64,000 nucleotides of DNA, from positions 841,501 to 905,500 of the forward strand of contig NZ_CP010834.1 in NCBI RefSeq assembly GCF_001548675.1. The letters run 5' to 3'. Positions 13,882-41,016 of this stretch are shown here, piece after piece. This stretch comes from Methanobrevibacter sp. YE315. GTDB taxonomy: Archaea > Methanobacteriota > Methanobacteria > Methanobacteriales > Methanobacteriaceae. Numbering within the stretch: the first letter of the stretch is position 1; the number at the start of each line of letters is the position of its first letter. Under the pieces are notes generated by a model that saw only the letters and a list, made by a program, of their open reading frames with translations, searched no databases and had not been told where the DNA came from. Both the position numbers and the translations under genes were made by a program.

Positions 13882-14832
13882 ATGAATGAAAATCTTTATG
13901 GAATGTTTGATAAGGTTTTACAATCCGAATTTTCAATTATAGAAGAAGCTTCAAAAAAGACAATTGAGTTAGGAAAAGATGCCAAATATGGAAAAATGGA
14001 AACTTACTCGTTATTTGATGGAGTTATCATTGCTTTTATGGACATTAACATTGACAATATTGATAATGTGTTTTTTGAAGATAAACTTCCTTCCCGTTTA
14101 CTTCAAATCAACCATTGTGCTAAAGGTAGATACTCATATGCAATAGGCGATGATAAGATTGTTTATTTTGGAAAAGGTGATTTGTGCGTTAGCATATATG
14201 ATTTAACAAAGACAGTTTCCGATTTTCCTTTGGGATATTATGAAGGTTTGGAGATTTTCATTGATGTTGATGTTGCAAATGAGCATATCAAAGAACTTAT
14301 TCCTGATTTTGATTTAATTGAGCTATATGAAAGTTTAGAAAAATCTAAAGGTTATAAGTTAGTTAGAGCAAATGAAAAAATCGACCATGTAATCGGTGAG
14401 TTGTATTGTGTCGATGAGCGAATTAAAGAACCTTATTTCAAATTAAAGTGTTTGGAGTTACTGTTATTTGTCTCTATTGCTAATGAATCAAAAATGGAAT
14501 CACTTTCCCTTTCCAAAAGACATGTTGATATAGTTGAAAGTGTCAAAGATGATTTGATCAATGATTTGGAAAGCAAGATTACAATTGATGAGCTGGCAGA
14601 TAGATACGATGTAAGTAAAACCACCTTGAAGAATTGCTTTAAGGAAGTTTATGGAAAACCTATTTTTAAATGGAGAAAAGAGTACAAACTTGATTATGCT
14701 TGCCGACTGATTGAAGAAGGCCATCTTTCCATTTCAGAAATCTCTAAAATGGTGGGATATTCTTCACCATCAAAATTTAGCCAGGCATTTAAGGACTATG
14801 TCGGCTGCACACCTTCAGAGTATAAAAAATAG
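13882..14832 (+). CDS. AraC-family transcriptional regulator
   Basis: Residues about 230-316 form the double helix-turn-helix DNA-binding domain of the AraC/XylS family (ITIDELADRYDVSKTTLKNCF, then ISEISKMVGYSSPSKFSQAF and the closing GCTPSEYKK). The first 200 residues are a divergent ligand-sensing half without a named match. AraC regulators are bacterial in distribution and rare in archaea, so transfer is likely. The gene sits directly upstream of the ABC/ECF island in the same direction, as yersiniabactin-type import genes sit beside YbtA in enterobacteria, so control of that island is the natural inference. An AT-rich box (AAATTTAAATAAA) about 30 bp before the ATG, with no ribosome binding site, suggests a leaderless transcript. 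Confidence 0.88.
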   Translation: MNENLYGMFDKVLQSEFSIIEEASKKTIELGKDAKYGKMETYSLFDGVIIAFMDINIDNIDNVFFEDKLPSRLLQINHCAKGRYSYAIGDDKIVYFGKGDLCVSIYDLTKTVSDFPLGYYEGLEIFIDVDVANEHIKELIPDFDLIELYESLEKSKGYKLVRANEKIDHVIGELYCVDERIKEPYFKLKCLELLLFVSIANESKMESLSLSKRHVDIVESVKDDLINDLESKITIDELADRYDVSKTTLKNCFKEVYGKPIFKWRKEYKLDYACRLIEEGHLSISEISKMVGYSSPSKFSQAFKDYVGCTPSEYKK

Positions 14833-14865
14833 TTTTTGTCTTTTTGGTATATTTTTTGTCTTTTT
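14833..14865 (+). terminator. Two TTTTTGTCTTTTT repeats after the AraC gene
   Basis: The 13-mer occurs at 14833-14845 and 14853-14865, exactly 20 bp apart. T-rich tandem blocks right after a stop codon most simply act as an archaeal terminator. A regulator-binding role for the 20-bp phased repeats cannot be excluded. Confidence 0.4.
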
Positions 14866-14946
14866 AGTTCAAATAAATATATATACTTATTTTAAAAGAA
14901 GTTAATAATGAAAATAAGGTATATTTAATTATTTTTTTACAAAAAC

Positions 14947-15009
14947 TTTTAGGATTATTCTTTTATCTATTTTTAAGATATTTTAAAGAATTGTCCTTTT
15001 AGGATTATT
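14947..15009 (+). promoter_or_regulatory. Direct repeats upstream of the ABC/ECF operon
   Basis: TTTTAGGATTATT occurs at 14947-14959 and again at 14997-15009, with starts exactly 50 bp apart, close to five helical turns. AraC-type activators typically bind direct repeats on one DNA face, and an AraC gene lies just upstream. The assignment as its binding site is an inference. Confidence 0.4.
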
Positions 15010-15016
15010 TTAAATT

Positions 15017-15032
15017 TTTAGGTATACCTAAA
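15017..15032 (+). promoter_or_regulatory. 16-bp palindromic operator candidate before the ABC/ECF operon
   Basis: TTTAGGTATACCTAAA is a perfect palindrome, 22 bp before the ATG at 15054. A plausible TATA element (TTTTAAATT at 15008-15016) precedes it, so the palindrome lies between TATA box and transcription start, a typical repressor position. The pattern resembles TTAGGnnnnCCTAA sites of DtxR/IdeR-type metal regulators. Confidence 0.6.
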
Positions 15033-15053
15033 TTAAATTTTAAGGAGTTTATT

Positions 15054-16844
15054 ATGTCAAATACTCAAAGTAAAAATAAATTTATACGATTATTGAATTA
15101 TTCGGGCAATTATAAGTATTTATCAATCTTAGGTATGATATTATCGGCTTTAAGTGCAATATGCCTATTAATTCCATTTATATACATATGGGATGTTGTC
15201 AATGCCCTTCTGGCTGCTGCTCCAAACTTCTCTCAAGCACAGAACTTGGAGACCTATGCATTTAATGCGTTTGCTTTTGCAATTGCGGGAATTGTTTTGA
15301 ACTTTTTCGGTTTAATGGGCACTCACTTATCTGCATTTAAAAACGAGAAAAACATGAAGGATGCAGCTATCAATCATTTGCTTAAACTGCCTTTGGGGTA
15401 TTTCTCAAATCATACCAGTGGAGGAATTAGAAAAGTAATTGACTTCAGCACTTCAAAAACTGAAACATTTTTAGCTCATCAATTATTTGATCTGACAGGA
15501 GCTATTATAACTCCGATAGCATTTATTATATTGTTATTCAGTTTTGATTGGCTTTTAGGCTTAATATGCTTGATTCCAATTATTTTATGTTTCATATTTA
15601 TGTATCCTATGTTTTCCGCCGAATCCCAGAATATTATGGTTCAGTATCAAACATATCTCGAAAAGATGAACGGTGAAGCCGTTGAATATGTTAGGGGAAT
15701 TCCAGTTACAAAGGCATTCCAGCAAAGTGTATATTCATTTAAAAACTTTATCGATGCAATTAGGAATTATGCAAAGTTTTCAGCTAATTACTCATTGTCT
15801 ACTCAGCTTCCAATGACAGCTTTTACAGTATCCATCAATGGATTTTTTGCGCTTTTGATTCCTGCGGGAATATTGCTTGCAGGGTCTGTAGTTGATAAGA
15901 AATTCTTGGCGGATTTCATGTTCTATATAATATTCACACCGATTTGCGCTGTAATGATGAACAAGATTATGACAGTTTCACAAGATTGGATGTTGGCAAG
16001 CCATGCTTTGGAAGGCATTGAAGAAATTTTAAATGAAAAGCCTTTAGTCGAAGCAGTCAATCCTCAAAAACCTAAAAATCATTCAATTGAATTTGAAGGA
16101 GTCTATTTTGACTATGAAAAGACTAGTGGTGATGAACATATCCTAAATGATGTTAATTTAAAAATCAATGAAAATGAAACTGTTGCATTAGTCGGACCTT
16201 CTGGGGGCGGTAAAACAACAATAGCATCATTAATTCCAAGATTCTGGGACGTTGATGAAGGTTCTATTAAAGTCGGCGAAGTAGATGTAAGGGATATATC
16301 AACAAAAGATTTGATGGAAAATATTTCATTCGTATTCCAAAATACAACCTTATTCAAAGATTCAATTTACAATAATGTGGCTATTGGCCGTAAAGGAGCC
16401 TCAAGAGAAGATGTTAAAAAAGCATTAAGTTTAGCTCAATGTGATGATATCATTGAGGAATTGCCGGATGGAATCGATACTGTGATTGGAACTGAAGGAA
16501 CCTATCTTTCAGGAGGTCAACAACAAAGGATTGCTCTTGCAAGAGCAATACTTAAAGATGCTCCAATTATCATTTTAGACGAAGCTACTGCATTAGCCGA
16601 TCCAGAAAACGAATACATGATTCAAAAGGCAATTTCTCAAATCACTATGGACAAAACAGTAATCATGATTGCACATAGATTGTCCACTGTTAAAAATGTA
16701 GATAGAATCTATGTAGTTGAAAATGGACGAATTGTAGAAGAGGGCAATCACAGCAGTCTTGTTGAAGATGAAGGCCTTTATTCAAGAATGTGGGATGAAT
16801 TTAACCAGTCAATTCAATGGAAAGTAAAAAGTGAGGTGGCATAA
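15054..16844 (+). CDS. ABC half-transporter, IrtA/YbtP-like (membrane plus ATPase domains)
   Basis: Residues about 15-300 carry six membrane spans of a type IV ABC exporter fold, followed by a nucleotide-binding domain. It has Walker A GPSGGGKTT near 381, signature LSGGQQQR near 486, Walker B IIILDEATALADPENE and an H-loop (MIAHRLST). The ALADPENE variant of the usual SALD motif is, from memory, typical of the siderophore-importing IrtA/YbtP group, which uses an exporter fold for uptake. It pairs with the next gene, whose ATG follows its stop with no gap, so the two should form a heterodimer. TAAGGAG at 15041-15047 sets the start. The metallophore substrate is an inference from family resemblance and context. 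Confidence 0.88.
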   Translation: MSNTQSKNKFIRLLNYSGNYKYLSILGMILSALSAICLLIPFIYIWDVVNALLAAAPNFSQAQNLETYAFNAFAFAIAGIVLNFFGLMGTHLSAFKNEKNMKDAAINHLLKLPLGYFSNHTSGGIRKVIDFSTSKTETFLAHQLFDLTGAIITPIAFIILLFSFDWLLGLICLIPIILCFIFMYPMFSAESQNIMVQYQTYLEKMNGEAVEYVRGIPVTKAFQQSVYSFKNFIDAIRNYAKFSANYSLSTQLPMTAFTVSINGFFALLIPAGILLAGSVVDKKFLADFMFYIIFTPICAVMMNKIMTVSQDWMLASHALEGIEEILNEKPLVEAVNPQKPKNHSIEFEGVYFDYEKTSGDEHILNDVNLKINENETVALVGPSGGGKTTIASLIPRFWDVDEGSIKVGEVDVRDISTKDLMENISFVFQNTTLFKDSIYNNVAIGRKGASREDVKKALSLAQCDDIIEELPDGIDTVIGTEGTYLSGGQQQRIALARAILKDAPIIILDEATALADPENEYMIQKAISQITMDKTVIMIAHRLSTVKNVDRIYVVENGRIVEEGNHSSLVEDEGLYSRMWDEFNQSIQWKVKSEVA

Positions 16845-18590
16845 ATGATATCTGAATATTTTGTTGAAAGATTCGGACTTACAAAAGAAGGTTCGGATAA
16901 TCTGATTAAGGGAATCATCTACACAGCACTTTTAAACATTGCATTCATGTTACCGGTTGGTTTATATGCATTACTACTTTACATGTGGGTAGAACCATTA
17001 ACCGGTGGAGAAATCATTGAACCAAACCTTGGAATGTTTATCGTATTGATATTGATTGTTTTAGGAATTATCTTTGCATTGGCATGGAAACAATATCACT
17101 TCGTATTCAATACAACCTACACAGAAAGTGAAAACAGAAGGATTAATCTTGGTGAAAACTTAAGAAAACTTCCGTTATCATTCTTTGAAAACAGGGACTT
17201 GGCGGATTTAACTGCAACAATCATGAATGACTGTACAGACTTGGAACATGTTTTCTCACATGCAATTCCACAATTGCTCGGTTCAATTATTTCATTAGTT
17301 CTTGTTGCAATAGGACTGCTAACCTTTGATTGGAGGCTAGCCATTGCACTATTATGGCCTGTTCCGGTAGCATTTGCAATATTGTATGCTTCAAAGATTC
17401 TCATCTATAAAGGTGGAAGAATTGTCATGGAAGACCTGCTTGATTGTGGAGATACAATGCAGGAATGCATAGAATCTGTCAGGGATTTGAAATCATACAA
17501 CTATCAGGATGAATACTATGGAAAAATTTCCAGTTTAACTTCCAAAATTGAAAAGTCAAGAATCAAAGCAGAACTGATGGCATCTGCTGGAGTAATTACC
17601 GGCAAAGTAGTTTTAAATCTAGGAATAGTTTCAGTGATTCTTTTAGGGTCATACTTGATTATGAATTCACAGGTGTCACTATTTACACTTTTGATATTCC
17701 TGATAGCTTCTGCTACAATCTATGCTCCTGTTGAGAATGGATTGATGTTTTTATCTGAAATATTGATGATGGATATAAAAATTGACAGGACCAAGGAAAT
17801 AGAATCATTAGTTGTTGAAGAAGGATTGACAGAATATTCCTTGAACGGCTATGATATTGAATTTAAGAATGTCGATTTCAATTATGATGATTTGAAAAAT
17901 GTTTTAACTGATATTAATTTCACAGCAAAACAAGGTGAAGTCACTGCACTTGTAGGACCTTCAGGAGGTGGAAAATCAACAGTTTCCAAACTTGCTGCAA
18001 GATTCTGGGATCCTGTTTCAGGTGAAGTAATTTTGGGAGGTCAGGATTTATCAAAACTCGATAGTGAGAAACTTTTAGAAAACTTTTCAATAGTTTTCCA
18101 GGATGTAATATTGTTTAATACTTCAATTTTGGAAAATATTCGAGTCGGTAAGAAAGATGCAACTGATGAAGAGGTAATTGAAGCAGCAAAGCTTGCAGAA
18201 TGTGATGAATTTGTCTCAAAACTTCCAGATGGATACGATACTGTCATCGGTGAAAATGGTGAGCTATTGTCTGGCGGTCAAAGGCAAAGAATTTCAATTG
18301 CAAGGGCAATGCTTAAAGATGCCAATGTAATTCTTTTGGATGAAGCAACATCATTTTTGGATGTTGAAAACGAATCCAAAATTCAAAAGGCATTATCTGA
18401 GCTAATAAGAAACAAAACTGTCATAATTATTGCTCATAGGATGCGTACAATAGCTAATGCCGATAAGATTGTTGTTCTCGATGAAGGTAGAATCGTTGAG
18501 CAAGGTTCACCTGATGAGTTGATAGCTCAAAATGGACTATTTAAGAAAATGGTTGATTTACAAAATTTAAGCGGGGAATGGGTAATCTAA
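16845..18590 (+). CDS. ABC half-transporter, IrtB/YbtQ-like
   Basis: Partner of the preceding half-transporter. About six membrane spans in residues 20-300 are followed by an ATPase domain with GPSGGGKST near 371, FQDVILFNTSI (Q-loop), LSGGQRQRIS near 475, VILLDEATSFLDVENE and IIIAHRMRT. Both halves keep the catalytic Glu after Walker B, so both sites look competent. The start codon immediately follows the upstream stop, with GAGGTGG inside the upstream gene as ribosome binding site, indicating tight coupling and equal expression. The family includes multidrug exporters as well as siderophore importers. The AraC neighbour and the downstream ECF genes favour uptake, but export of a product cannot be ruled out from sequence. 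Confidence 0.88.
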   Translation: MISEYFVERFGLTKEGSDNLIKGIIYTALLNIAFMLPVGLYALLLYMWVEPLTGGEIIEPNLGMFIVLILIVLGIIFALAWKQYHFVFNTTYTESENRRINLGENLRKLPLSFFENRDLADLTATIMNDCTDLEHVFSHAIPQLLGSIISLVLVAIGLLTFDWRLAIALLWPVPVAFAILYASKILIYKGGRIVMEDLLDCGDTMQECIESVRDLKSYNYQDEYYGKISSLTSKIEKSRIKAELMASAGVITGKVVLNLGIVSVILLGSYLIMNSQVSLFTLLIFLIASATIYAPVENGLMFLSEILMMDIKIDRTKEIESLVVEEGLTEYSLNGYDIEFKNVDFNYDDLKNVLTDINFTAKQGEVTALVGPSGGGKSTVSKLAARFWDPVSGEVILGGQDLSKLDSEKLLENFSIVFQDVILFNTSILENIRVGKKDATDEEVIEAAKLAECDEFVSKLPDGYDTVIGENGELLSGGQRQRISIARAMLKDANVILLDEATSFLDVENESKIQKALSELIRNKTVIIIAHRMRTIANADKIVVLDEGRIVEQGSPDELIAQNGLFKKMVDLQNLSGEWVI

Positions 18591-18621
18591 TTCCCTTTTA
18601 AAAATTATAGGAGAAAAAATT

Positions 18622-19203
18622 ATGTCTGAAAGATTAAATGTACATGATTTAATTACTGTGGGTATTTTTGCAGTGATTTTAATAGTATTAATTTTCGCAT
18701 TTGGAATGTTGGGTTATATTCCGATTTTAATGTTGGCATTGCCAATTTTAGCAGCATTAATTTGTGGAATTCCATACATGCTCTTCTTAACAAGAGTTTC
18801 TAAATTTGGAATGGTTACATTGCTAGGGCTGATTCTGGGAATTGTAATGTTTTTAAGCGGCCATACATGGGTGCCAATTGTTGTATTTACTTTATTTGCA
18901 TTCATTGCAGATTGTATCTTAAAAATGGGTAATTACTCATCAATTAAAAATTCAATTATTAGTCATGGTGTTTTTATAATGGGAATAATGGGTAATATGT
19001 TGCCATTTTTCATTTTAAGAGACTATTTCATGGAAGCAATGCGCGCTTCAATGGGAAATGATTATGTTAATGTCATTGCCCCATTCCTTAACAATGGTGT
19101 TTTAGTAATATTATTTATTTTAACATTCATTGCAGGTGTTGCAAGTGCTTATGTTGGAAAAATTGTGCTCAAAAAACACTTTGAAAAGGCAGGTATAGCT
19201 TAG
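18622..19203 (+). CDS. MptD/Trep-Strep-type ECF transporter S component
   Basis: The 193-residue protein is almost entirely membrane-embedded, with five or six spans, starting with a short polar N-terminus (MSERLNVHDLITVGIFAVIL) as in MptD-family S components of energy-coupling factor transporters. Length and topology fit an S component, which binds the substrate and docks with EcfT and EcfA. Those two genes follow immediately on the same strand. An ATAGGAG site lies 9 bp before the ATG. The S component decides substrate and none is known for this family. In several gut Clostridia I recall the same set (AraC, two ABC halves, MptD, EcfT, EcfA), suggesting a mobile module. Confidence 0.75.
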   Translation: MSERLNVHDLITVGIFAVILIVLIFAFGMLGYIPILMLALPILAALICGIPYMLFLTRVSKFGMVTLLGLILGIVMFLSGHTWVPIVVFTLFAFIADCILKMGNYSSIKNSIISHGVFIMGIMGNMLPFFILRDYFMEAMRASMGNDYVNVIAPFLNNGVLVILFILTFIAGVASAYVGKIVLKKHFEKAGIA

Positions 19204-19211
19204 GTGTAATA

Positions 19212-19931
19212 ATGGGATTAGAACTAAATTTTAACTTAGATCCAAGAACTAAAATCATTATTTTAGTTGTTTTAAGTTTCATGGTTTTTAATGATGTGTC
19301 ATTATATATTAGTGGAATTTTAGTTTTAATTCCATTTATTTGTTTATTTTTCACAAACCATAAAAAATCAGCATGGCTTTATATTGCTGTTTATTTATTG
19401 GCTAAATATATTCAAATTTTTATTCTTCCTACAGCAACAGGATTGATGGCAATTATACTAATTACTTTTAGTTATACTGCTTCTAGAATGTTGCCAATTC
19501 TTATGATGGGATATTATACTATAACAACTACTAAAGTAAGCGAATTCATTGCGTCTATGGAAAAAAGTAATATTCCCCGATATGTCATTATTCCCGTTTC
19601 AGTTGTTTTTAGATATATCCCATCAGTTTATGAAGAAATTAAATCAATAACTAATGCAATGAAAATGAGAGGCTTTGGATTAAATATCAAATCCTTGAAA
19701 AACCCTTTAAAACTAATAGAATTTTATATGATTCCTATTTTGATTAGTGCAGTTAAAACAGCAGATGAACTCTCAGCCGCCTCTCTAACAAGAGGACTCA
19801 GCAATCCGGAGCCAAGAACTCATTTACTTCAAGTAAAATTGACCAAACTGGATTACTCACTTATAGCAATAACATTCATTGGTTTTGGAATATATGCATA
19901 TGGTTTTTTAAGAGGTGTCTTGATTGCTTAA
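19212..19931 (+). CDS. ecfT: ECF transporter membrane coupling protein EcfT
   Basis: Residues about 15-120 contain four membrane spans, followed by cytoplasmic coupling helices containing the characteristic A-R-G sequences (ITNAMKMRGFG and SAASLTRGLSNP), then a final span. EcfT links the S component to the ATPase subunits. The gene begins 8 bp after the MptD-like gene (AGGTG precedes the ATG) and its end overlaps the EcfA start by 8 bp, so the three form one transcription unit. The length of 239 residues is normal for the family. Confidence 0.87.
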   Translation: MGLELNFNLDPRTKIIILVVLSFMVFNDVSLYISGILVLIPFICLFFTNHKKSAWLYIAVYLLAKYIQIFILPTATGLMAIILITFSYTASRMLPILMMGYYTITTTKVSEFIASMEKSNIPRYVIIPVSVVFRYIPSVYEEIKSITNAMKMRGFGLNIKSLKNPLKLIEFYMIPILISAVKTADELSAASLTRGLSNPEPRTHLLQVKLTKLDYSLIAITFIGFGIYAYGFLRGVLIA

Positions 19932-21375
19932 AATGGAAGATGTTTCATTCACATATAATAATAATGGCGATACTCAAAATCTGTCTGATATAAATTTGAA
20001 TGTTAAAGAAGGGGAAGTTATTCTGCTTTGTGGCGAGTCAGGCTGCGGAAAAACATCAATCACACGTTTTTTAAATGGACTGATTCCGAATTTCTTCGAT
20101 GGTAAACGTGAAGGAAATGTTTATTTGGGTAATGATTTAATCAGTGAAATGAAGATATATGAAATTTCAAAGCATATTGGATCAGTTTTTCAAAATCCAA
20201 AAACCCAGTTCTTCAATGTTGATACGACAAGCGAACTTGTTTTTGGATGTGAAAATTTATCCATGAACGTTGATGAGATTAAAAAAAGGCTAGATTGTGT
20301 AGTTGATGACTTTGACATATTCAATCTGGTTGATAAAAATATTTTTAAGTTATCCGGCGGTGAAAAGCAAAAGATTGCTTGTGCATCAGTATCGGCGGTA
20401 TCTCCCGATGTTCTTGTTCTAGATGAACCATCATCCAACTTGGATTCCAAGTCAAGCTGGGATTTTGAATTCATAATTAGGAAATGGAAAGAGCAGAAAA
20501 AAACAGTAATTATTGCCGAACATAAATTATTCTTTTTAGGTGATGTCGTTGACAGGGTAATATTTCTTAAAGACGGAAAAATTACAAACGAATGGTCAAT
20601 CGATGAATTTAAAAACATAAATCATCGAGATTTGGGTTTAAGGCAATTAAATTTGGACAATATAGAATTAAAAAGAAAAGAATATTACTCCAAGAATCAG
20701 GAATTTTTGGAACTTAAAAATTTTAAATTTAACTATGGAAAAACTCAAGTTTTAGACATTGATGATGTTAAAATTCCTAAAAACGAAATCATAGCCATCA
20801 TTGGTAAAAATGGTGCCGGAAAGTCAACATTTGCAAATTGTTTGTGCGGTCTTAAAAAATCATGCAAGGGCGAGTTAGTCTTCAATGGAAAATCCTTAAA
20901 AAGAAAGGATAGGCTTAAAAAATCTTATATGGTGATGCAGGATGTAAATCATCAGCTATTTACAGAAAGTGTCCTTGATGAAGTTTTGTTGAGTATGGAT
21001 GAAGATGATTTGGAATTAGCTGAAGATATTCTTAGGAATTTGAACCTGATTCATCTAAAAGATGCCCATCCAATGGCATTATCCGGTGGTGAAAAGCAAA
21101 GGGTAGCTATTGCATCGGCAATTGCATCTAAAAAGGAAATATTGATTTTTGATGAGCCAACAAGTGGTCTTGATTTAAGGAATATGATGAAAGTTTCTGA
21201 AAACTTAAGGTATCTGCAGGGATTAGGGATAACTTCATTCATCATAACCCATGATTTCGAATTAATCTGTGAGTCTTGTTCCCATATCCTGCATTTTGAT
21301 GATGGCAAAATCATTGATAATTATAAGATTGATGAACAAAAACTGAAAGATTTCTTTTTAAGGGGGTCTCAATAG
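19924..21375 (+). CDS. Double-domain ECF ATPase EcfA (two fused ABC domains)
   Basis: Two complete ABC ATPase domains lie in one chain. The first has Walker A CGESGCGKTS, LSGGEKQKIA and VLVLDEPSSNLD; the second has IGKNGAGKST, LSGGEKQRVAIA and ILIFDEPTSGLD. The fusion replaces the EcfA1/EcfA2 heterodimer and powers import through EcfT and the S component. The TTG start at 19924 gives MLKMEDVSFTY, matching usual EcfA starts, and overlaps ecfT. The ATG at 19933 is an alternative that loses only three residues. The gene ends the transport block; the next gene begins about 90 bp later. Confidence 0.88.
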   Translation: MLKMEDVSFTYNNNGDTQNLSDINLNVKEGEVILLCGESGCGKTSITRFLNGLIPNFFDGKREGNVYLGNDLISEMKIYEISKHIGSVFQNPKTQFFNVDTTSELVFGCENLSMNVDEIKKRLDCVVDDFDIFNLVDKNIFKLSGGEKQKIACASVSAVSPDVLVLDEPSSNLDSKSSWDFEFIIRKWKEQKKTVIIAEHKLFFLGDVVDRVIFLKDGKITNEWSIDEFKNINHRDLGLRQLNLDNIELKRKEYYSKNQEFLELKNFKFNYGKTQVLDIDDVKIPKNEIIAIIGKNGAGKSTFANCLCGLKKSCKGELVFNGKSLKRKDRLKKSYMVMQDVNHQLFTESVLDEVLLSMDEDDLELAEDILRNLNLIHLKDAHPMALSGGEKQRVAIASAIASKKEILIFDEPTSGLDLRNMMKVSENLRYLQGLGITSFIITHDFELICESCSHILHFDDGKIIDNYKIDEQKLKDFFLRGSQ

Positions 21376-21463: not shown

Positions 21464-21943
21464 ATGTATGAGAATCATTTGCCAATTTTTGGTGTAGGAC
21501 CATATTTAGTTTTAATAATTGGAATCATAACTATAATTTTCTCCATATCCTCATACTACCATTTAATTCCAGTTTATAAGATAAATGAATTAAATATGGT
21601 CTTTTTTATTTTAGGAGTAATATTAATAAGTTTAGGGATTGTTTTTTGGATTTCAGCAGTTCTGGTCTCAAAAATAAGTGATGAAGTTGAAAACAATAAA
21701 TTAGTTACAACAGGGATATATGCTTATGTAAGGCACCCTATTTATGCCGCATTTTTTTATGCTGCAACCGGATTAATATTAATCTCTCAGAATATCCTCC
21801 TATTTATCTTGCCCGTATTTTTCTGGGCATTTCTAACAGTTGCAATGATAAATACTGAAGAAAAGTGGTTAATTGAGAGATATAGTGATGATTATAGGGA
21901 TTATTCTAAAAAAGTTAATAGATTCATACCAAAGGTGATTTAA
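21464..21943 (+). CDS. Isoprenylcysteine carboxyl methyltransferase-like membrane protein
   Basis: About four membrane spans with the family's C-terminal signature: GIYAYVRHPIYAAFF, then EEKWLIERYSDDYRDY. These residues bind S-adenosylmethionine in ICMT/PEMT-type enzymes. The family methylates lipids or lipid-linked groups, but the substrate here is unknown. The ATG at 21464 is preferred because GTGAT sits 4 bp before it; a TTG at 21449 in frame is possible. The stop overlaps the ATG of the next methyltransferase by one base, indicating an operon. Position after the transport genes suggests it modifies the transported or synthesised molecule. Confidence 0.75.
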   Translation: MYENHLPIFGVGPYLVLIIGIITIIFSISSYYHLIPVYKINELNMVFFILGVILISLGIVFWISAVLVSKISDEVENNKLVTTGIYAYVRHPIYAAFFYAATGLILISQNILLFILPVFFWAFLTVAMINTEEKWLIERYSDDYRDYSKKVNRFIPKVI

Positions 21944-22638
21944 TGGGATTTTTTGACAATATGAGAAAACCAAAAGGAAAATTAGGAAACATTCAATTAA
22001 AATCAATGAACAAGGAACACACTCCTGTTTCACTATGGGGGTTGAAACATTTGGAGATAAAACCTGGCGATACTATCTTGGATGTAGGCTGCGGCGGTGG
22101 AATTAACATCAATAGAATGGCCAAACAAGCAAAAATGGTATATGGTGTAGATTACAGCATAGAAAGCGTAAAACTGTCACGTGAAGTAAACCGCCAGGAG
22201 ATATATGACGGCAAAGTCAAGGTTCTTGAGGGCAATGTTGCAAATCTGCCCTTTGAAGATAACACTTTCGATGTAGTGACAGCATTTGAAACGGTTTATT
22301 TCTGGCCTGATATCGAAAAATGCTTTGGCGAAGTTAAAAGGGTCCTTAAGCCTGGCGGAACATTTCTAATTGGGATGGAATCGAACGGATCAGACAACCT
22401 AATTATGAAAGTATCTGAAAAATTAATTGACATGACAGTATATGATGATGAGCAGATTACAGAATTTTTAAGGAATAACGATTATTCACAAATTACCGTT
22501 TATTTGAGGGACGGAAAAAACAAAAAGGAAATAATAAAAGAGATTGGCGGGCAAACAAAAACCGTTGATGATGATTATGACCATGTTTCTTTTTCGGATA
22601 AGTTTGTCCAATGGATGACCATTGTGGCAAGAAAGTGA
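21943..22638 (+). CDS. Class I SAM-dependent methyltransferase
   Basis: Motif I ILDVGCGGGININ begins near residue 46, motif II contains VYGVDYS with the acidic ribose-binding residue, and ANLPFEDNTFDVVTAFETVY and KRVLKPGGTFLIGME are the later UbiE-type motifs. It is a soluble Rossmann-fold methyltransferase of unknown acceptor. Start and stop overlap or nearly touch the neighbours on both sides (TAATG upstream; 4 bp to the next ATG), so it is translated with two other methyltransferases. The C-terminal 60 residues are divergent and probably form the substrate cap. Confidence 0.85.
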   Translation: MGFFDNMRKPKGKLGNIQLKSMNKEHTPVSLWGLKHLEIKPGDTILDVGCGGGININRMAKQAKMVYGVDYSIESVKLSREVNRQEIYDGKVKVLEGNVANLPFEDNTFDVVTAFETVYFWPDIEKCFGEVKRVLKPGGTFLIGMESNGSDNLIMKVSEKLIDMTVYDDEQITEFLRNNDYSQITVYLRDGKNKKEIIKEIGGQTKTVDDDYDHVSFSDKFVQWMTIVARK

Positions 22639-22642
22639 TATT

Positions 22643-23440
22643 ATGGAGGAATATGAAGGTGTGGAAGATACATTATTCATACCATTAACTGGAAGAGTAT
22701 ATGTCTCTAAAAAATTTCCAGAGTATTTTTTCGATGAAAAAGCCTTAGAAATGGAGAATTTGATTAAGAACAAACAAATTGAGAATAAATCATCAGAATA
22801 TACGATGCTGGCAAATGTTGCTAGAAGCTACAATTTAGATGAAATGGCTCAAAAATTCATTGATAAGCATGATAAATGCAATATTGTGAATTTGGGTGTG
22901 GGCCTTGAAACATCATATTATAGAATTGATAGAAAAAATTCTCTTTTTTTTGAAGTTGACCTACCTGAAGTGATTGAACTAAGAAAGAAATATTTCGAAG
23001 TCGCAGAAAATGAAAAGTTCATTAAAGGAGATTTGTTTAAACTTGAATGGTGTGATGAATTAGACACCAATCTTCCAACATTAATGATAGTTGCAGGCGT
23101 GTTCCAATACTTCCATGAGGAGGATATTCTCGATTTCATTGGAAATGTTAAAAAAATTTTTAGAAATGCTGAGTTGATATTTGATGCAACAAACAAATTT
23201 GGAATAAAATATTGCAATCTATATGTTAAAAGAACTGGAAATAAGTCAGCATTAATGTATTTCTATATTGAAGATGCAAATGAATTTTCAAAAAAGGCTA
23301 ATTGTCAGCTGATTGAATGTAGAGGTTTTTATAAAGATGCTATAAAAATATTAAATAAGAAATTAGGTTTATATGCAAAAATTGCAATGAAAATAGCCGA
23401 TAAAAGGGATAATGCAATGATTTTGCATCTAAAAATTTAA
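22643..23440 (+). CDS. LCM-family (leucine carboxyl methyltransferase-like) SAM methyltransferase
   Basis: The core CNIVNLGVGLETSYYRID followed by FFEVDLPEVIELRKKY is the hallmark of the Ppm1/LCM1/TcmP-type O-methyltransferases, where the Asp binds SAM and an Arg the cofactor. LMIVAGVFQYFHEEDI is the later motif. The first residues of the longer frame (from TTG 22622) overlap the upstream gene; the ATG at 22643 with AGTGAT just before it is preferred. In bacteria this family often tailors polyketide or peptide products. A relative lies at 26219-26998 on the other strand, under a palindromic operator candidate. Confidence 0.82.
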   Translation: MEEYEGVEDTLFIPLTGRVYVSKKFPEYFFDEKALEMENLIKNKQIENKSSEYTMLANVARSYNLDEMAQKFIDKHDKCNIVNLGVGLETSYYRIDRKNSLFFEVDLPEVIELRKKYFEVAENEKFIKGDLFKLEWCDELDTNLPTLMIVAGVFQYFHEEDILDFIGNVKKIFRNAELIFDATNKFGIKYCNLYVKRTGNKSALMYFYIEDANEFSKKANCQLIECRGFYKDAIKILNKKLGLYAKIAMKIADKRDNAMILHLKI

Positions 23441-23640
23441 CTAATCTTTTGTAATCAGCCATATCCATTCAACCATTTTGCGATTAATGTAATTTCTTAT
23501 TTGTTTTAATAAATCCATCAATAACAGCTTGTCAATAAGAGGTATTCTAAAAAAAATAATTTGATGAAGATACTTTAGTATCCCATCAGTATTGTTTAAT
23601 TTTTTGGCACAATAGTGGCATGCACTTAATACTTTTTCAT
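23441..23640 (-). pseudogene. Small open frame or gene remnant between MTase and adhesin
   Basis: On the minus strand one frame reads HEKVLSACHYCAKKLNNTDG followed by ILKYLHQIIFFRIPLIDKLL and on to a stop at 23441-23443, about 65 codons. It has a C-x-x-C pair and a composition like real protein, but no start codon in a credible place: upstream the frame enters the end of the adhesin gene in another phase and hits a stop. It may be a truncated gene. The family is not recognised. Confidence 0.35.
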
Positions 23641-25865
23641 GGTAACATTGCTGAGATAACAGATGCTGAATCTGAGAGCAGAGTTACAGAGTTTGAGAGA
23701 ACAGACGCTGAACCTGAAGATAATGAGCTTGCATCATCTACGAAAATATAATCAGGGCCGTCTATGTGCCTTAATAACCAAAAATCACAGCAATTTGCTT
23801 CGGATAAAAATGCAAAACCGAAAATTTCGGCAGCAATTCCAGCCATAATTGATCCACCTATTATTACCGCTGAAAATATTGTTGTGTCAAAGTTTACATT
23901 AAACACATTGTCACTAACTAATTTGGCCGCCAGAATACCGTGAATAGCACCTATTGCCAATCCTAAACTGGCTGCCATAAGCATTCCTCCTGAAGCGGCT
24001 CCTGCAAGAATACTGAGAAGAATAGTTGATCCAATACACCATGCTGTAATTAGTGATATGTCTGTCATGCTGAAACCATTGGAAAAATAAACAGGGCCAC
24101 AGTCACCTGTAAGGTTAATTCCCTTAAATTGTACCTTACCACCGTCTCCTACACAGACATCATTGCCTTTACCATAAGCCTTATTATTTGAGAATGTACA
24201 GTTATTCAAGACTAATGCTCCCTGGTTGAAGATTGCTCCGCCATGTTTAGCATAATTACTGATAAAACTACAGTTATTGCAAGTCATGGATCCTAGGTTG
24301 ATTATTGCTCCACCCCAGTCTCTTGTAATGATGTAGTCCATTCTGTTATTTTTGAATATTACGTTGTTGAAAGTACATGATCCTCCCATATTATAAACTG
24401 CAGTGTTATATCCTTCGATATTTAAATTAGATACGACAATTGAGTAGGAAGGGTCTACTACGAGCCAGTGATATTCATCACTTTCATCATATGTGCCGTA
24501 GATTGTTGACTGATGACCATTAATGATTATCATGTTAAATTGGGAAAATGATATTTGCCATGGGTCTGTGCATCTGATGGATACATTACTTGTAAAAATT
24601 ACATTAAGTACATACAATAAATTTTCTAAAGGTAAGTATCCCTCAAAATCAGGGCAAGACCTTTCTTCAAAGGCGAATGAAATTTCTAATATATGGCTTT
24701 TTATTAAAGCATTATAATCTGCTGTACTGCTGACGGTTTTATTCAACATAAGTGTTAAATCATTGCGAAAATTCCCCTCACGCATTAAATTGAAAATTTC
24801 ATTTAATTCTGTAATGTTTTTGAAATTGTAATCTTTTCTGTAGGTAATTCCATATTCCTCGAAATATCTTATCATTGATAATGAAAAAGTGCAGGTTTCG
24901 TTATCGTAAATGATATAATATACAATGTCGTTATCCAGATAATTAAGGCCGCTGTTCATTATTGCGGAATACATTACATGAGCCAGATTGAATTTTTTAT
25001 CGATTAGGTAGGAACTAAAATCATATCTTAGGTAATTTACATCAATATTGGTTACTGATCCATCAATAATGTATTTACCTCCCTCTTCGAATACACATTC
25101 TGTGAGGTTTAGATTTTTCTTGTTGCGGTCAATGTAAATTGCTTCGTGAGATAATTGGCTGAAGCTGTTTATAAAAAAGGAATGGCTAATTGTATTATCC
25201 GCGCCACCTATATAAATTGCACCACCAATTCCCCGTGCAGTATTATTTATGAATATGCAGTTATTGATAATGCCATTATTTCCACTCCAGCTAACTGCTC
25301 CACCGTTAATCGCTTCATTATTTATGAATGTACAGTCTGAAATAATTCCATAATCACCATTCCAGCTAATGGGGCTTAAAACATCATGATATGTTTTTCG
25401 GTATTTTGAGTCGTCCATTGGAGAGTTATCAGGTATATTTATTCCGATTGGTTTGGAGTTGATGATTGTCAGGTTTAATAGTTTAACATTGTTTCCTGTT
25501 ACTTTAAATATTGCATAGAAATATTCTCCTGCATCTATGATGTGTCCATTACCATTGATGGTGATGTTATCTTTGTCGATTATGATTACATTCTCATCGA
25601 TTATTATATGTTTTCCGTTACCATCAAAATAATAGTCTTTGTCAAAATCGTATGTGTCTCCGGGCTGGAGATTTTGAATATCATTGTTTAAGTCGTCAAA
25701 ATTTCCGGGCAATGGTGTTTCGTCAGTCAGGGTGTGGTTAATGTGTGTTGGTTCATTCAACGGCATAGTGTCTACATCGCTTGCTGAAACGCAAGACGTT
25801 CCTATTAATATGCATAGGAATAACATTATAAAAAACAAATACTTTTTCGTTTTCAGTTTTATCAC
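23637..25865 (-). CDS. Adhesin-like beta-helix protein with hydrophobic tail (paralogue of 5192-7435)
   Basis: It has the same plan as the protein at 5192: signal peptide (YLFFIMLFLCILIGTSCVSA), a shared FDDLNNDIQNLQPGDTYDFD opening, two Asn/Gly beta-helix blocks (INNCIFINNTARGIGGAIYI; NCSFISNYAKHGGAIFNQGA), a middle module, and a hydrophobic glycine/alanine tail (residues about 600-700) with the FNVNFDTTIF spacer. The resemblance runs end to end. The start is uncertain: GTG at 25865 lies inside an AGAGGTGAT sequence that itself looks like a ribosome binding site, so a non-standard start a few codons later (CTG) is conceivable. Surface location is inferred from the signal peptide. Confidence 0.85.
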   Translation of the reverse strand: MIKLKTKKYLFFIMLFLCILIGTSCVSASDVDTMPLNEPTHINHTLTDETPLPGNFDDLNNDIQNLQPGDTYDFDKDYYFDGNGKHIIIDENVIIIDKDNITINGNGHIIDAGEYFYAIFKVTGNNVKLLNLTIINSKPIGINIPDNSPMDDSKYRKTYHDVLSPISWNGDYGIISDCTFINNEAINGGAVSWSGNNGIINNCIFINNTARGIGGAIYIGGADNTISHSFFINSFSQLSHEAIYIDRNKKNLNLTECVFEEGGKYIIDGSVTNIDVNYLRYDFSSYLIDKKFNLAHVMYSAIMNSGLNYLDNDIVYYIIYDNETCTFSLSMIRYFEEYGITYRKDYNFKNITELNEIFNLMREGNFRNDLTLMLNKTVSSTADYNALIKSHILEISFAFEERSCPDFEGYLPLENLLYVLNVIFTSNVSIRCTDPWQISFSQFNMIIINGHQSTIYGTYDESDEYHWLVVDPSYSIVVSNLNIEGYNTAVYNMGGSCTFNNVIFKNNRMDYIITRDWGGAIINLGSMTCNNCSFISNYAKHGGAIFNQGALVLNNCTFSNNKAYGKGNDVCVGDGGKVQFKGINLTGDCGPVYFSNGFSMTDISLITAWCIGSTILLSILAGAASGGMLMAASLGLAIGAIHGILAAKLVSDNVFNVNFDTTIFSAVIIGGSIMAGIAAEIFGFAFLSEANCCDFWLLRHIDGPDYIFVDDASSLSSGSASVLSNSVTLLSDSASVISAMLP

Positions 25866-25907
25866 CTCTAAATAGGGATTTCTTTTATTCTACAATTTTT
25901 TCTATCC

Positions 25908-25951
25908 TATTTATAGTATATAATATTTTCCGCAAGTAAGTGATTGCTTGC
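25908..25951 (-). promoter_or_regulatory. Adhesin promoter with GCAAG...CTTGC repeat
   Basis: Read on the minus strand, GCAAGCAATCACTTACTTGC is followed by GGAAAATATTATAT and a TATA-like ACTATAAATAG (25908-25918). The gene at 5192 has a related GCAAG/CTTGC repeat also followed by GCGGGAAA and an AT-rich stretch. The rest of the 25866-26218 gap shows nothing clear apart from the terminator near 26183. Confidence 0.4.
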
Positions 25952-26182
25952 ATTAGTTTGGTGATAATAATTTGGTTTTAATGTCCTATTATTAAAGGAA
26001 AATCATAAGTAGAATTAAAAATTATTTGGGTTGATGGTAATCCAATCATAAGTCTTTTCAAATGACATATTTAGATCGGTTCGGTGATTTTTTCTGGTTT
26101 GTTGATCAAAATTTCTATTTTTTTTTTATAGATTGCTTATTCAACATTAATCTTTAGTGGTGAATCATAATTTGCTTTTTAA

Positions 26183-26206
26183 AAAAGTACCTGTGGAGGT
26201 ACTTTT
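26183..26206 (-). terminator. Hairpin terminator for the LCM-type methyltransferase
   Basis: AAAAGTACCT and AGGTACTTTT form a perfect 10-bp stem with a 4-base loop. Read on the minus strand it is followed by an A/T stretch containing several T. It lies 12 bp past the stop of the gene at 26219. Confidence 0.6.
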
Positions 26207-26218
26207 AAAAAGTGCTTT

Positions 26219-26998
26219 CTATTTTTCAAGAACGGCAATATAATCCATTCTTTTTCTTAACAACGGAAGCCAAGTGACTATCTTATAATGGGGCTTATAA
26301 ACATTAACGCCATCAAAGAGATTAACATCCTTTATCCATCTAAAGTTATTATTGAACTTTGTTAATTCATGTCCTTTTTCGACACCCCATATGAATTTGG
26401 AGTCTGTATCTTCTATTGATTCTTCCTTTGTGTTTTTAACGGAAATCGGAGGCATTATCTCCATATAGATTGTACATTTGTCAAAATTTGAATCTATAAC
26501 ATTAATGATGTCTACTACATCTTTCTCATTTAGATACATTGTCAATCCTTCAACGATGAATAAAACATCATTTCTTATTGAGATTTCCTGAGCCCATCCA
26601 GGATCCATTGCCGAATACGCAAGTGTTGTAACCCTGTCTGTATCTTCAATATATTTCAACCTATAATTTGCTGAATTTTCTAAATCCACATTGTACCAAT
26701 TGATTTTACCGTTATCAAGTCTGTTAAAACGTGTATCCATCCCTGATGCAATATTGACAATTGTACATTCTGGGTGGGCATTTATATAGTCTCCAACCAT
26801 TTCATCTAATACAATTGTTCTTGAAATTGTACCAAGTTGCATAAATTTATCCTTTTCAGCTATGCTGAAATCATAATCAATTTTAGATATGACTTCTATT
26901 GCTTTTGAATCATAGAATTTATGATTTTTCTGTTGTGAATGTCTTGCTTTAGCAAACAATGTCAAAAGCATTGTTTTTTCTACGCCTTCTAAATTCAT
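26219..26998 (-). CDS. LCM-family SAM methyltransferase
   Basis: CTIVNIASGMDTRFNRLD and NWYNVDLENSANYRLKYI are the SAM-binding motifs of the leucine carboxyl methyltransferase-like O-methyltransferases, and VLFIVEGLTMYLNEKDVVDI is the conserved GLxMYL segment. At 259 residues it is a full-length family member. The acceptor is unknown. GGAGA before the ATG supports the start. Unlike most neighbours it has a single-gene unit bounded by a hairpin terminator and a promoter carrying a perfect palindrome (27060-27075) shared with the ABC/ECF island, so the two are probably co-regulated. It is distinct from, but in the same family as, the methyltransferase at 22643. Confidence 0.85.
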   Translation of the reverse strand: MNLEGVEKTMLLTLFAKARHSQQKNHKFYDSKAIEVISKIDYDFSIAEKDKFMQLGTISRTIVLDEMVGDYINAHPECTIVNIASGMDTRFNRLDNGKINWYNVDLENSANYRLKYIEDTDRVTTLAYSAMDPGWAQEISIRNDVLFIVEGLTMYLNEKDVVDIINVIDSNFDKCTIYMEIMPPISVKNTKEESIEDTDSKFIWGVEKGHELTKFNNNFRWIKDVNLFDGVNVYKPHYKIVTWLPLLRKRMDYIAVLEK

Positions 26999-27048
26999 AA
27001 GTAGTTCTCCATTGATAAGTTTAATTCATATAATTATTGTATGGGATA

Positions 27049-27075
27049 CTATATAAATTTTTAGGCATGCCTAAA
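27049..27075 (-). promoter_or_regulatory. TATA box plus perfect 16-bp palindrome for the LCM methyltransferase
   Basis: TTTAGGCATGCCTAAA (27060-27075) is a perfect palindrome. On the minus strand it is followed after AA by TTTATATAG (27049-27057). The 15 bases AAAATTTATATAGTA recur identically beside the palindrome at 40747. The palindrome covers the BRE position, so a bound protein would affect TFB/TBP loading. Confidence 0.65.
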
Positions 27076-27192
27076 TTTTTAAAATCCTTTTCAGAATAGT
27101 CATATTTAAAATGCCGTTTTTTGAAATTATACTTAAAGTAGCTGACAATTCCAATACTGACATCTAAATTCAAATATTATGTCGATTAAAGG

Positions 27193-27306
27193 AAGTTAAA
27201 GCTTCAAAATCAAGATTATCAACTTTTAATTGGCAATATTGATGATAAAAAGGTAAACTGGGTTGGAAAGTCCAGTTATATTGATAATAAACAAAAAAGA
27301 ATTATA
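27193..27306 (+). pseudogene. Decayed gene remnant related to 4711-4920
   Basis: One frame reads KLKLQNQDYQLLIGNIDDKK then VNWVGKSSYIDNKQKRII, bounded upstream by a stop at 27187-27189. Both peptide (K-L-x-N-x-D...LLIGNI...SxYI) and DNA (TCGATTAAA followed shortly by AAGCTTCA) resemble the remnant at 4801-4920. The parent family is unknown. Confidence 0.4.
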
Positions 27307-27330
27307 AAAATAAAAAAAGAAGTAGCTGAA

Positions 27331-27573
27331 TTATTCAGCGTTAATTTCGATATCAAAGGTTTTAGCTTCAATAGCAGCACTTTCACCAGGTTGAATGGTG
27401 TAAATAGGGGAACCAAGTAAAATTAAGTTGTTGTTAATTTCTCTAATAACATTGTCTGCTACTTCTTGCATGTGGGTTCCTTCATATAAGAAACCTTCAT
27501 CTTTGTTACCTTCTAATTTGTATGAAGTTACGTCACCACTAATTTTGTTAGTTGCTTTTACATTTACAATCAT
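27331..27573 (-). CDS. Small protein of unknown function (80 aa)
   Basis: An 80-residue soluble acidic protein with no signal peptide, membrane span or cysteine. The sequence alternates like a small alpha/beta domain (MIVNVKATNKISGDVTSYKL; VADNVIREINNNLILLGSPI). TTGGAGATT precedes the ATG, a good ribosome binding site, and codon use looks normal, so I regard it as real. It is divergent from the methyltransferase at 27629, with 55 bp between them that must hold both promoters. I recognise no family. Confidence 0.7.
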   Translation of the reverse strand: MIVNVKATNKISGDVTSYKLEGNKDEGFLYEGTHMQEVADNVIREINNNLILLGSPIYTIQPGESAAIEAKTFDIEINAE

Positions 27574-27628
27574 AATTAATCTCCAATTAAATGATATTAA
27601 TTATTATGTTAGTTAACATTTTTAAATA

Positions 27629-28393
27629 ATGCGGTTTAAATTTAAGATTATGGAAATACCCTTATATTTTTATCTTGCATATAAAGATTTGGATAGATTA
27701 TCCCCAGGCAGTGACGATACAACTTTAAAAGCAATTGGCAAAGTCAATATAATCCATCCAGAAGATTTAAATATTCTTGACATTGCATGTGGTGTTGGTT
27801 CATCTACAATCCTGCTTGCAAATTACTTTGAAAATGCCACAGTTGAAGCAATCGACTTATTCAAACATTATCTGGCAGTTTTGGATGAAAAGATATCTGA
27901 AAATAATCTGGAGGATAGGGTATTTACATATCAGATGGATATGAATGATCCTGATTTTGCAAACGAAGAGTTTGACATCGTATTTTGCGAAGCCGCAGTG
28001 GAAATTATGGGATTTAAAAAAGCTTTGCATGATTGGAAAAGACTGCTTAAAAATGAAGGATTCTTGATAGTGTCTGACGTTTCATGGATTGGAAAACCAT
28101 CATCTGAAAGCAGAAAATTCTGGAAAGAAACATATGAGGAAATAGACACGATTGAAAATAAGATTGCACAGATAAAAGATGAGGGATATGAATTTGTTGA
28201 TTATGTTATTGTTCCTAAAGAGGACTGGAGCGAGTATCACAAAAAACTTGAAAGGAATCTGAATTCCCTAAGCTCAGATAAATCAGCAAAAGAATTTGTA
28301 AATCAATTGAAAAAAGAAATAAAGATTTATAGGCAGAATAGCGGGGATTATAGTTACGTATTTTATATCATGAGAAAAGCAACTCGTCAATGA
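27629..28393 (+). CDS. Class I SAM-dependent methyltransferase (UbiE-like)
   Basis: ILDIACGVGSSTILLANYF is motif I, VEAIDLFKHYL holds the acidic ribose-binding residue, and FDIVFCEAAVEIMGF plus WKRLLKNEGFLIVSDV are motifs II/III of the UbiE/COQ5-type methyltransferases. The 254 residues include a C-terminal helical region that probably covers the substrate. The start at 27629 is followed by another ATG eight codons later (MEIPLYF), which is an equal candidate. The 3' end overlaps the converging cobyric acid synthase gene by 26 bp. The acceptor is unknown. Confidence 0.8.
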   Translation: MRFKFKIMEIPLYFYLAYKDLDRLSPGSDDTTLKAIGKVNIIHPEDLNILDIACGVGSSTILLANYFENATVEAIDLFKHYLAVLDEKISENNLEDRVFTYQMDMNDPDFANEEFDIVFCEAAVEIMGFKKALHDWKRLLKNEGFLIVSDVSWIGKPSSESRKFWKETYEEIDTIENKIAQIKDEGYEFVDYVIVPKEDWSEYHKKLERNLNSLSSDKSAKEFVNQLKKEIKIYRQNSGDYSYVFYIMRKATRQ

Positions 28394-40532: not shown

Positions 40533-40737
40533 TTTTCCACTCCGAAACATTTTTTCATCAAGAATTAAACGTTCTTTCAGAATCAATTTGCAATTATGAA
40601 TAGAAATGTCTGAAAATCTAGTTTTGTTCAAATTATTTATATTTTAAGTTAAATTTTATTTGAATGTTTAAAATTTTAAATTGTTATTTGACATTTCATA
40701 AATATTCTCTACTCTTGATTAGTATGTTCTCTTTCTA

Positions 40738-40762
40738 CTATATAAATTTTGGCATGCCTAAA
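40738..40762 (-). promoter_or_regulatory. TATA box plus near-perfect palindrome for the third adhesin
   Basis: Minus strand: TTTAGGCATGCCAAAA (40747-40762, one mismatch from a perfect palindrome) followed by TTTATATAG (40738-40746). AAAATTTATATAGTA is identical to the promoter at 27049. The chosen start codon is about 205 bp downstream, implying a leader of roughly 180 bases. The rest of the 40533-41016 gap shows nothing else clear. Confidence 0.6.
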
Positions 40763-41016
40763 AAATTATGTATTCAAACTAGATTATGCGAAACTTATCG
40801 ATGAATCATTCAAAACAACGTAACATTAACCATGAAAAATTGGTAGGTTGGTTGGGAATCTGAAAGTTAAATATAGGAAGTTTTACTACACAATAATCAC
40901 TTTGATTTTAAGTCATTTTTTTAAATGATAGTGATAATATTTAACTAATGTGCAGCATAATAATTAGTAGTAGAGAAGTAAAAGTAATGGATATTAATAT
41001 GTATTGAGGGAATAGA

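Follow-up and report, generated by a model that had tools for sequence, protein, structure and literature searches.

Five methyltransferase genes lie at 21464-28393 in a 64,000-nucleotide stretch of the Methanobrevibacter sp. YE315 genome (contig NZ_CP010834.1, positions 841,501 to 905,500; hereafter the window, whose numbering is used unless a genome position is given), downstream of a transport island at 13882-21375. Four of them, designated ICMT, MT2, LCM1 and LCM2, are assigned by sequence comparison to the shared operator system of this island, and at the level of sequence their regulation by it is well supported. The operator, a palindrome, is a predicted DtxR-type metal operator, and iron, as the most economical signal, is very probably the metal to which the regulon responds. 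We propose, with a probability of roughly 0.4, that the four methyltransferases belong to this DtxR-type, very probably iron, regulon and methylate a small metal-binding ligand. The fifth gene, MT5, appears from the genomes compared to be a bystander, patchy in occurrence and outside the set.

The palindromic operator and its regulon

The palindrome TTTAGGYATRCCTAAA was found at 15015-15032, before the first ATP-binding cassette (ABC) gene of the island, and at 27058-27075, before LCM2; the two sites match, as a sequence-only reading of the window had stated for the island and one leucine carboxyl methyltransferase (LCM) gene. The iron-type operator cores are TTTAGGTATACCTAAA at 15017-15032, 21 bp before the ABC gene, and TTTAGGCATGCCTAAA at 27060-27075. 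The LCM2 operator is adjoined by a putative TATA box, TTTATATA (27050-27057, minus strand), that is kept in the LCM2 orthologs in a consensus anchored on the operator. At up to three mismatches the window contained five strand-hits versus 0.29 expected, a number reached by none of 100 shuffled sequences.

In the entire genome, searched as a single contig of 2,273,296 bases, the 18-mer had 20 matches per strand at up to two mismatches, versus one for the reversed control. Two sites each adjoin feoB and feoA, and others a P-type ATPase operon, mvhD and genes for a Cys/Met-metabolism enzyme, a MacB-like ATPase, a major facilitator superfamily protein and a CbiM-like protein; certain sites lack a convincing downstream gene. 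Another site lies 54 bp before the called start of a regulator gene of the DtxR/IdeR family (genome positions 1365895-1366617), with Fe_dep_repress, Fe_dep_repr_C and FeoA domains. Seven relatives searched with the 16-mer at up to one mismatch had 7-19 sites each and no control matches. For two of them, 20 stretches surrounding a portion of the sites were inspected, and the genes present were those for FeoA, FeoB, Hmd together with an FeGP-cofactor gene, rubrerythrin, FdhD, a NiFe-hydrogenase subunit, an energy-coupling factor (ECF) S component and an O-methyltransferase with a dimerisation domain. Since hydrogenase and rubrerythrin genes are included, the regulon would not serve uptake alone. 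The O-methyltransferase, in genome G060 (L235:2641-3645; G and L numbers are our handles for genomes and loci), starts 13 bp after an exact operator and appears to be another methyltransferase class in the regulon.

The palindromic operator, the DtxR-family gene and the feoA and feoB targets are those of iron regulons of the DtxR/IdeR type, archaeal DtxR with FeoAB among them, and DtxR and FeoAB are treated together in a paper on methanogens (PMC9431491). The system described here differs from the known regulons in that at least three methyltransferase families are in it. An iron-regulated methyltransferase set in methanogens was not found in the literature searched, which lacked most subscription papers.

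Conservation of the operator at the methyltransferase genes

Conservation was scored as an operator with at most one mismatch within 150 bp upstream, with other open reading frames (ORFs) of at least 150 residues as the control. The operator was present at 29 of 30 places for LCM2, 15 of 16 for the first ABC gene and 13 of 23 for ICMT, versus 18 of 397 control ORFs. The counts for MT5, LCM1 and MT2 were 3/13, 1/11 and 1/20, LCM1 and MT2 being internal genes in most cases. The sole LCM2 ortholog lacking an operator is cut off at the end of its contig. The ICMT gene of the window lacks a separate operator, though that of many relatives has one; an operator precedes the ABC gene as well as ICMT in G097 and G069, and the ABC gene only in G096.

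The operator also persists at LCM2 paralogs of 33-41% identity in several genera, where all 12 examined carried it with 0 or 1 mismatch (a fragment in G086 and a degenerate copy in G040 were left out). The information content of the paralog alignment was 1.59 bits in the operator core versus 0.32 in the flanks; for the orthologs the values were 1.75 and 0.40 bits, the core being followed by the conserved TATA-like stretch. LCM2 of the Methanobacteriaceae is thus predicted to be a gene of a DtxR-type regulon, probably one for iron.

Groups of ICMT, MT2 and LCM1 were scored at their first gene, with the operator allowed within 250 bp, in 30 groups from loci picked for holding these genes. An operator preceded 21, 24 and 25 of the 30 at up to one, two and three mismatches, respectively, versus 8, 12 and 17 of 217 control ORFs. 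Among the five groups lacking a site even at three mismatches, one is within an importer operon, one is at a contig end, one has an operator 484 bp away and two have none. Counting by transcription unit instead gave 18/31 at up to one mismatch, because neighbouring genes were merged, versus 15/223 controls. In G050 a run led by an operator (L207:7373-9668) has a PF14196 (ATC hydrolase family) gene along with LCM2-like and LCM1-like genes.

Methyltransferase genes and their order

The sequence-only reading had counted five methyltransferases of three kinds in about 7 kb, and all five genes do score above the Pfam cut-offs; the density at the locus exceeds chance. ICMT (21464-21943, plus strand) encodes a small membrane methyltransferase of the PEMT/ICMT superfamily (PEMT 45.1 and ICMT 36.6 bits, over the cut-off). 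MT2 (21943-22638, plus), which overlaps the end of ICMT, encodes a soluble class I enzyme (Methyltransf_11, 93.6 bits). LCM1 (22643-23440, plus) and LCM2 (26219-26998, minus) have the LCM fold, with PF04072 scores of 43.0 and 35.5 bits against a cut-off of 22.3, and MT5 (27629-28393, plus) is again class I (Methyltransf_25, 58.8 bits). The genome has two LCM matches in total, both at this locus, and 14 Methyltransf_25 matches, two of them here.

The family labels given in that reading held for the LCM pair, which passes PF04072; 'UbiE-like' and 'ICMT-like' describe no more than the fold, because the NCBIfam equivalog cut-offs were missed. ICMT scored 69.4 bits with NF040696, the model for isoprenylcysteine O-methyltransferase proper, where 160 are needed, and the UbiE/MenG models gave 60.6-65.7 bits for MT2 and 38 bits for MT5, versus cut-offs of 158-216. 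Family models thus gave only weak matches for the function of ICMT and MT2. LCM1 and LCM2 likewise missed the TIGR00027 cut-off of 93.55, with 42.8 and 38.3 bits.

The methyltransferases had also been said to surround the transport island, but they are in fact downstream of it. The plus-strand order from 13882 is the AraC gene, the ABC pair, the MptD-family S component, the CbiQ-type T component, the double ECF ATPase, ICMT, MT2 and LCM1. An 89-bp gap separates the ECF ATPase gene from the ICMT start codon, while ICMT, MT2 and LCM1 overlap or almost touch, and with gaps of at most 89 bp the three look like distal cistrons of the island. Beyond LCM1 are a beta-helix/adhesin-like gene (742 residues, minus strand), LCM2, an 80-codon ORF and MT5.

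Fold and likely chemistry of the LCM pair

The AlphaFold models of LCM2 and LCM1 were confident (predicted local distance difference test scores of 88.6 and 88.0), and in these models both proteins have the carboxyl methyltransferase fold of PPM1, LCMT1 and TYW4. The LCM2 model matched ML2640c with a Z-score of 22.5 (245 aligned residues, root mean square deviation 3.3) and PPM1 with 21.5; the LCM1 model matched PPM1 with 22.6 (258 aligned, deviation 2.9). The best structural matches of the pair were ML2640c, PPM1, LCMT1, TYW4 and Rv0731c, with Z-scores of 17.8-22.6, followed by the uncharacterised actinobacterial proteins 3giw and 2qe6 at 16-17.5 and the other class I methyltransferases listed at 14.8 or less. 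Foldseek agreed with the LCM-family match for LCM2. A direct PDB sequence search with LCM2 gave no match at 0.01, and one with LCM1 gave LCMT1 only.

The pair is like the PF04072 family (PPM1, LCMT1, TYW4, ML2640, Rv0731c) in its fold and in a hidden Markov model score above the cut-off, and differs in its 10-19% structural identity, in the missed TIGR00027 cut-off and in the link to an iron-type operator in methanogens. PPM1, LCMT1 and TYW4 methylate carboxyl groups, PPM1 and LCMT1 on PP2A and TYW4 on tRNA. Because of this chemistry, carboxylates are by analogy the most likely substrates of LCM1 and LCM2.

The transport island

The island begins with an AraC-family regulator gene (13882-14832, plus strand; Pfam HTH_18/HTH_AraC), which also precedes the ABC genes in related islands. 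Next on the same strand are two half transporters of the ABC exporter type, the first mptA/IrtA/YbtP-like (15054-16844; NCBIfam MsbA-type matches below the equivalog cut-offs) and the second mptB/IrtB/YbtQ-like (16845-18590; NCBIfam matches). The ECF genes, also on the plus strand, are those for an MptD-family S component (18622-19203; TIGR02185 125.2 bits, cut-off 76.45; Pfam Trep_Strep 190 bits), a CbiQ-family T component (19212-19931; PF02361 75.5 bits, cut-off 25) and an ATPase with two nucleotide-binding domains (19924-21375; two ABC_tran stretches, ECF_ATPase models). The two half transporters share the gene run with the S component, and the arrangement is conserved in relatives.

As judged from gene content, the island resembles the mptAB/mptDEF metallophore-type systems of mycobacteria and is predicted to transport a metallophore. 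In Mycobacterium avium subsp. paratuberculosis, the IrtAB-like mptABC is metal-controlled and adjoins mptDEF and a putative siderophore cluster, according to the portion of the paper available (PMC4298942). Common to both are the IrtAB-like ABC pair and the MptD-family transporter, the likeness of the ABC pair being one of transporter kind. Metal control is reported for the mycobacterium and is suggested here by a conserved operator common to feoA and feoB. There are differences, as far as the same portion of that source goes: mptABC is governed by zinc and FurB whereas the operator here is DtxR-type, and an LCM/ICMT/MT2 set is not described for the mpt loci (PMC4298942).

An AraC regulator with an exporter-type ABC pair also likens the island to siderophore nonribosomal peptide synthetase (NRPS) clusters that include methyltransferases, such as those of the yersiniabactin type. 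The difference is that no co-regulation with an NRPS was found here, and co-occurrence is weak and confined to LCM2.

The ECF island of several relatives leads on to genes for an ABC ATPase of 234-245 residues and for large permeases, with operator-like sites (three mismatches in L162); examples are L163:11682-17020, with FtsX-type permeases, and similar loci in L154, L155, L159, L161, L162 and L167. The genome of the strain itself has an ABC ATPase gene with an operator at genome position 1763459.

Distribution among related genomes

Each gene was searched in the same 119 genomes of the family and associations were assessed by Fisher tests, which ignore the relatedness of the genomes. Identity cut-offs for orthologs were chosen by eye where the hit lists showed gaps (at least 50% for MptD, 65% for LCM2, 59% for LCM1, about 48% for ICMT, 70% for MT2 and 57% for MT5); some broken or partial copies were counted as present, other broken copies fell below the cut-offs, and a 20-residue LCM2 fragment in G113 was left out. 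The numbers of positive genomes were 21 for MptD, 31 for LCM2, 15 for LCM1, 24 for ICMT, 35 for MT2, 17 for MT5 and 66 for the NRPS condensation domain.

LCM2 and MT2 occurred together in 24 genomes (odds ratio 24, p 5e-11; within genus p 4e-4), ICMT and MT2 in 18 (odds ratio 13.8, p 2e-7; within genus p 3e-5) and MptD and ICMT in 13 (p 3e-6; within genus p 0.011). The distributions are therefore not independent for four of the five genes, as the LCM2/MT2 and ICMT/MT2 pairs indicate, while that of MT5 mostly is. LCM2 is convergent to MT2 or LCM1 in G096, G097, G098, G048, G103, G104, G106 and G114, five of which (G098, G048, G104, G106 and G114) have no MptD match. In G000, G096, G097 and G069 the importer genes are directly followed by ICMT-MT2-LCM1 or ICMT-MT2. 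A profile search for LCM2 in 151 genomes of the phylum gave matches in 58, from 5 of 20 genera, and all matches listed were in the same family. The operator and its conservation, the regulator gene, the co-occurrence and adjacency of the genes and the LCM fold can all be read from sequence.

The 17 orthologs of MT5 at 57% identity or more include that of the window, and otherwise MT5 is near LCM2 only in G100 and G112. All five genes as a single unit were rejected on the grounds that MT5 is elsewhere in most relatives and has the operator in few of them. The transporter and the methyltransferases as an obligate pair were likewise rejected: the association of MptD with LCM2 had a p of 8e-4 over the 119 genomes but of 0.35 within genus.

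Proposed function and alternatives

When metal is sufficient, a repressor would sit on the palindrome beside the promoter and the genes would be off. When iron is short, ICMT, MT2, LCM1 and LCM2 would be made along with FeoA, FeoB and the importer of the mptAB/mptDEF-like, metallophore type, ICMT-MT2-LCM1 of the window probably being read through from the operator of the importer and LCM2 standing under its own. Methyl groups of S-adenosylmethionine would be moved to a small metal-binding ligand, either cell-made or imported, and in the case of the LCM pair most likely onto carboxylates, which would tune the solubility, export or metal release of the ligand in iron starvation. What we infer in this scheme is the iron signal, the repression, the carboxyl substrate and the reaction, as well as the transport direction and the tie to a metal ligand; methylation of a metal ligand is proposed because the transport part resembles metal-controlled mpt loci beside a putative siderophore cluster.

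Several observations weigh against the proposal, 1) 9 of the 30 methyltransferase groups have no operator at up to one mismatch, 2) MptD is absent from 19 of the 31 LCM2 genomes, 3) 4 of the 21 MptD genomes hold none of ICMT, MT2, LCM1 and LCM2, 4) an MptD-type importer was beside LCM1 in none of five non-archaeal loci, 5) LCM2 has a weak association with NRPS (odds ratio 3.8, p 0.006 over the 119 genomes; 0.052 within genus) and 6) the mycobacterial mptABC responds to zinc and not to iron, in the portion of the report available (PMC4298942). Because each occurs without the other, a ligand common to the set and the importer is not proven.

The strongest rival, since characterised LCM enzymes act in this way, is that the iron-regulon methyltransferases act, for iron sparing, on a macromolecule or on the envelope, such as a protein C-terminus, tRNA or lipid, with no metal ligand involved. 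PP2A and tRNA are the targets of the characterised matches, LCM2 is present without importer and without NRPS, and hydrogenase and rubrerythrin genes are in the same regulon. The position of ICMT-MT2(-LCM1) directly after importer genes in four genomes does not favour it, however, and a distribution as patchy as that of LCM2 (31/119) would be unusual for a core macromolecule modification. We regard this explanation as possible, although on the doubtful side.

Unlikely, but still to be weighed, is that the operator serves a nickel, manganese or general divalent-metal regulon and the methyltransferases serve that metal. The sites before the CbiM-like gene, the NiFe-hydrogenase genes and Hmd are consistent with this, as is the zinc regulation of mptABC. 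Against it, and for iron, stand the feoA and feoB sites of two genera, the site at the DtxR-type gene and the treatment of DtxR with FeoAB in methanogens.

The locus had been taken for natural-product tailoring on account of its methyltransferase density. The part of this view that survives is that four genes belong together and share an operator system; tailoring of an NRPS product was rejected as the principal explanation on the strength of the NRPS-free genomes and co-occurrence. An NRPS end is present at 52-2658 of the window, and together with the association of LCM2 it could suggest that the five genes tailor the product of the upstream NRPS. However, about 11 kb of unrelated genes separate this end from the AraC gene, and no operator at up to two mismatches was found from genome position 744456 to the ABC gene, the stretch holding the NRPS end, which places the NRPS outside operator control. 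No condensation domain is present at an E-value of 1e-15 in seventeen genomes that carry one or more of the four methyltransferases, and several of these genomes are 97-99% complete. Over the 119 genomes MptD, ICMT, MT2 and LCM1 had no significant association with NRPS, and that of MT5 (p 0.018) was 0.33 within genus. Since ICMT, MT2, LCM1 and LCM2 are also found where the transporter is missing and where no NRPS is present, tailoring is unsupported, and this already weakened explanation is quite improbable. The available part of a paper on M. ruminantium mentions two NRPS genes, and neither 'iron' nor 'DtxR' occurs in the main text (PMC2812497).

The genes might also have piled up by chance, as horizontal acquisitions in a variable region by adhesins, with the operator inherited accidentally. 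This would fit the patchy distribution, the broken LCM1 copies and the bacterial LCM1 relatives, but it is very improbable and contradicted for four genes by an operator kept at orthologs and 33-41% paralogs while the flanks diverge and by the recurring LCM2-MT2 and LCM1-LCM2 neighbourhoods, MT5 being still likely to have arrived in this way.

The proposed methylation of a metal ligand can be extended to gut Methanobacteriaceae in general, as an NRPS-independent iron-starvation methylation with an LCM enzyme under the iron operator, usually helped by ICMT, MT2 or LCM1, and a methyl-ester metal ligand that is made or processed; in this full form it is tentative and rather unlikely. If true, such a ligand would be the first known for these methanogens, and a small-ligand substrate would open the questions of how gut methanogens get iron and of metal-ligand exchange in the rumen and gut. 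The natural-product guess is replaced by a testable rule, an iron-type operator at LCM2 even at 33-41% identity, and a bioinformatic definition of the DtxR-type regulon in Methanobrevibacter is gained.

Other observations

In G097 (L151) and G063 (L184) the LCM1 gene is broken into two frames, which suggests recent decay in some lineages. Its bacterial relatives, of 45-54% identity, are in an Erysipelotrichaceae metagenome-assembled genome (MAG), three MAGs labelled Chloroflexi/Anaerolineaceae and Catonella, suggesting transfer between bacteria and archaea. PF14196 (ATC hydrolase family) genes are near the bacterial LCM1 in three of the five loci (L173-L177).

The adhesin-like gene at 23637-25865 (minus strand) parts LCM1 from LCM2 in the window. 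G096 and G097 lack it, and their two LCM genes converge within about 50 bp, which suggests an insertion in the lineage of the window. The gene after MT5 is cobyric acid synthase-like. An operator-like site at 40745-40764 lies about 115-125 bp before a further adhesin-like gene (38076-40631, minus strand), and a similar case was seen in G060 (L240). Because such sites precede adhesin-like genes, some surface proteins may be metal-regulated.

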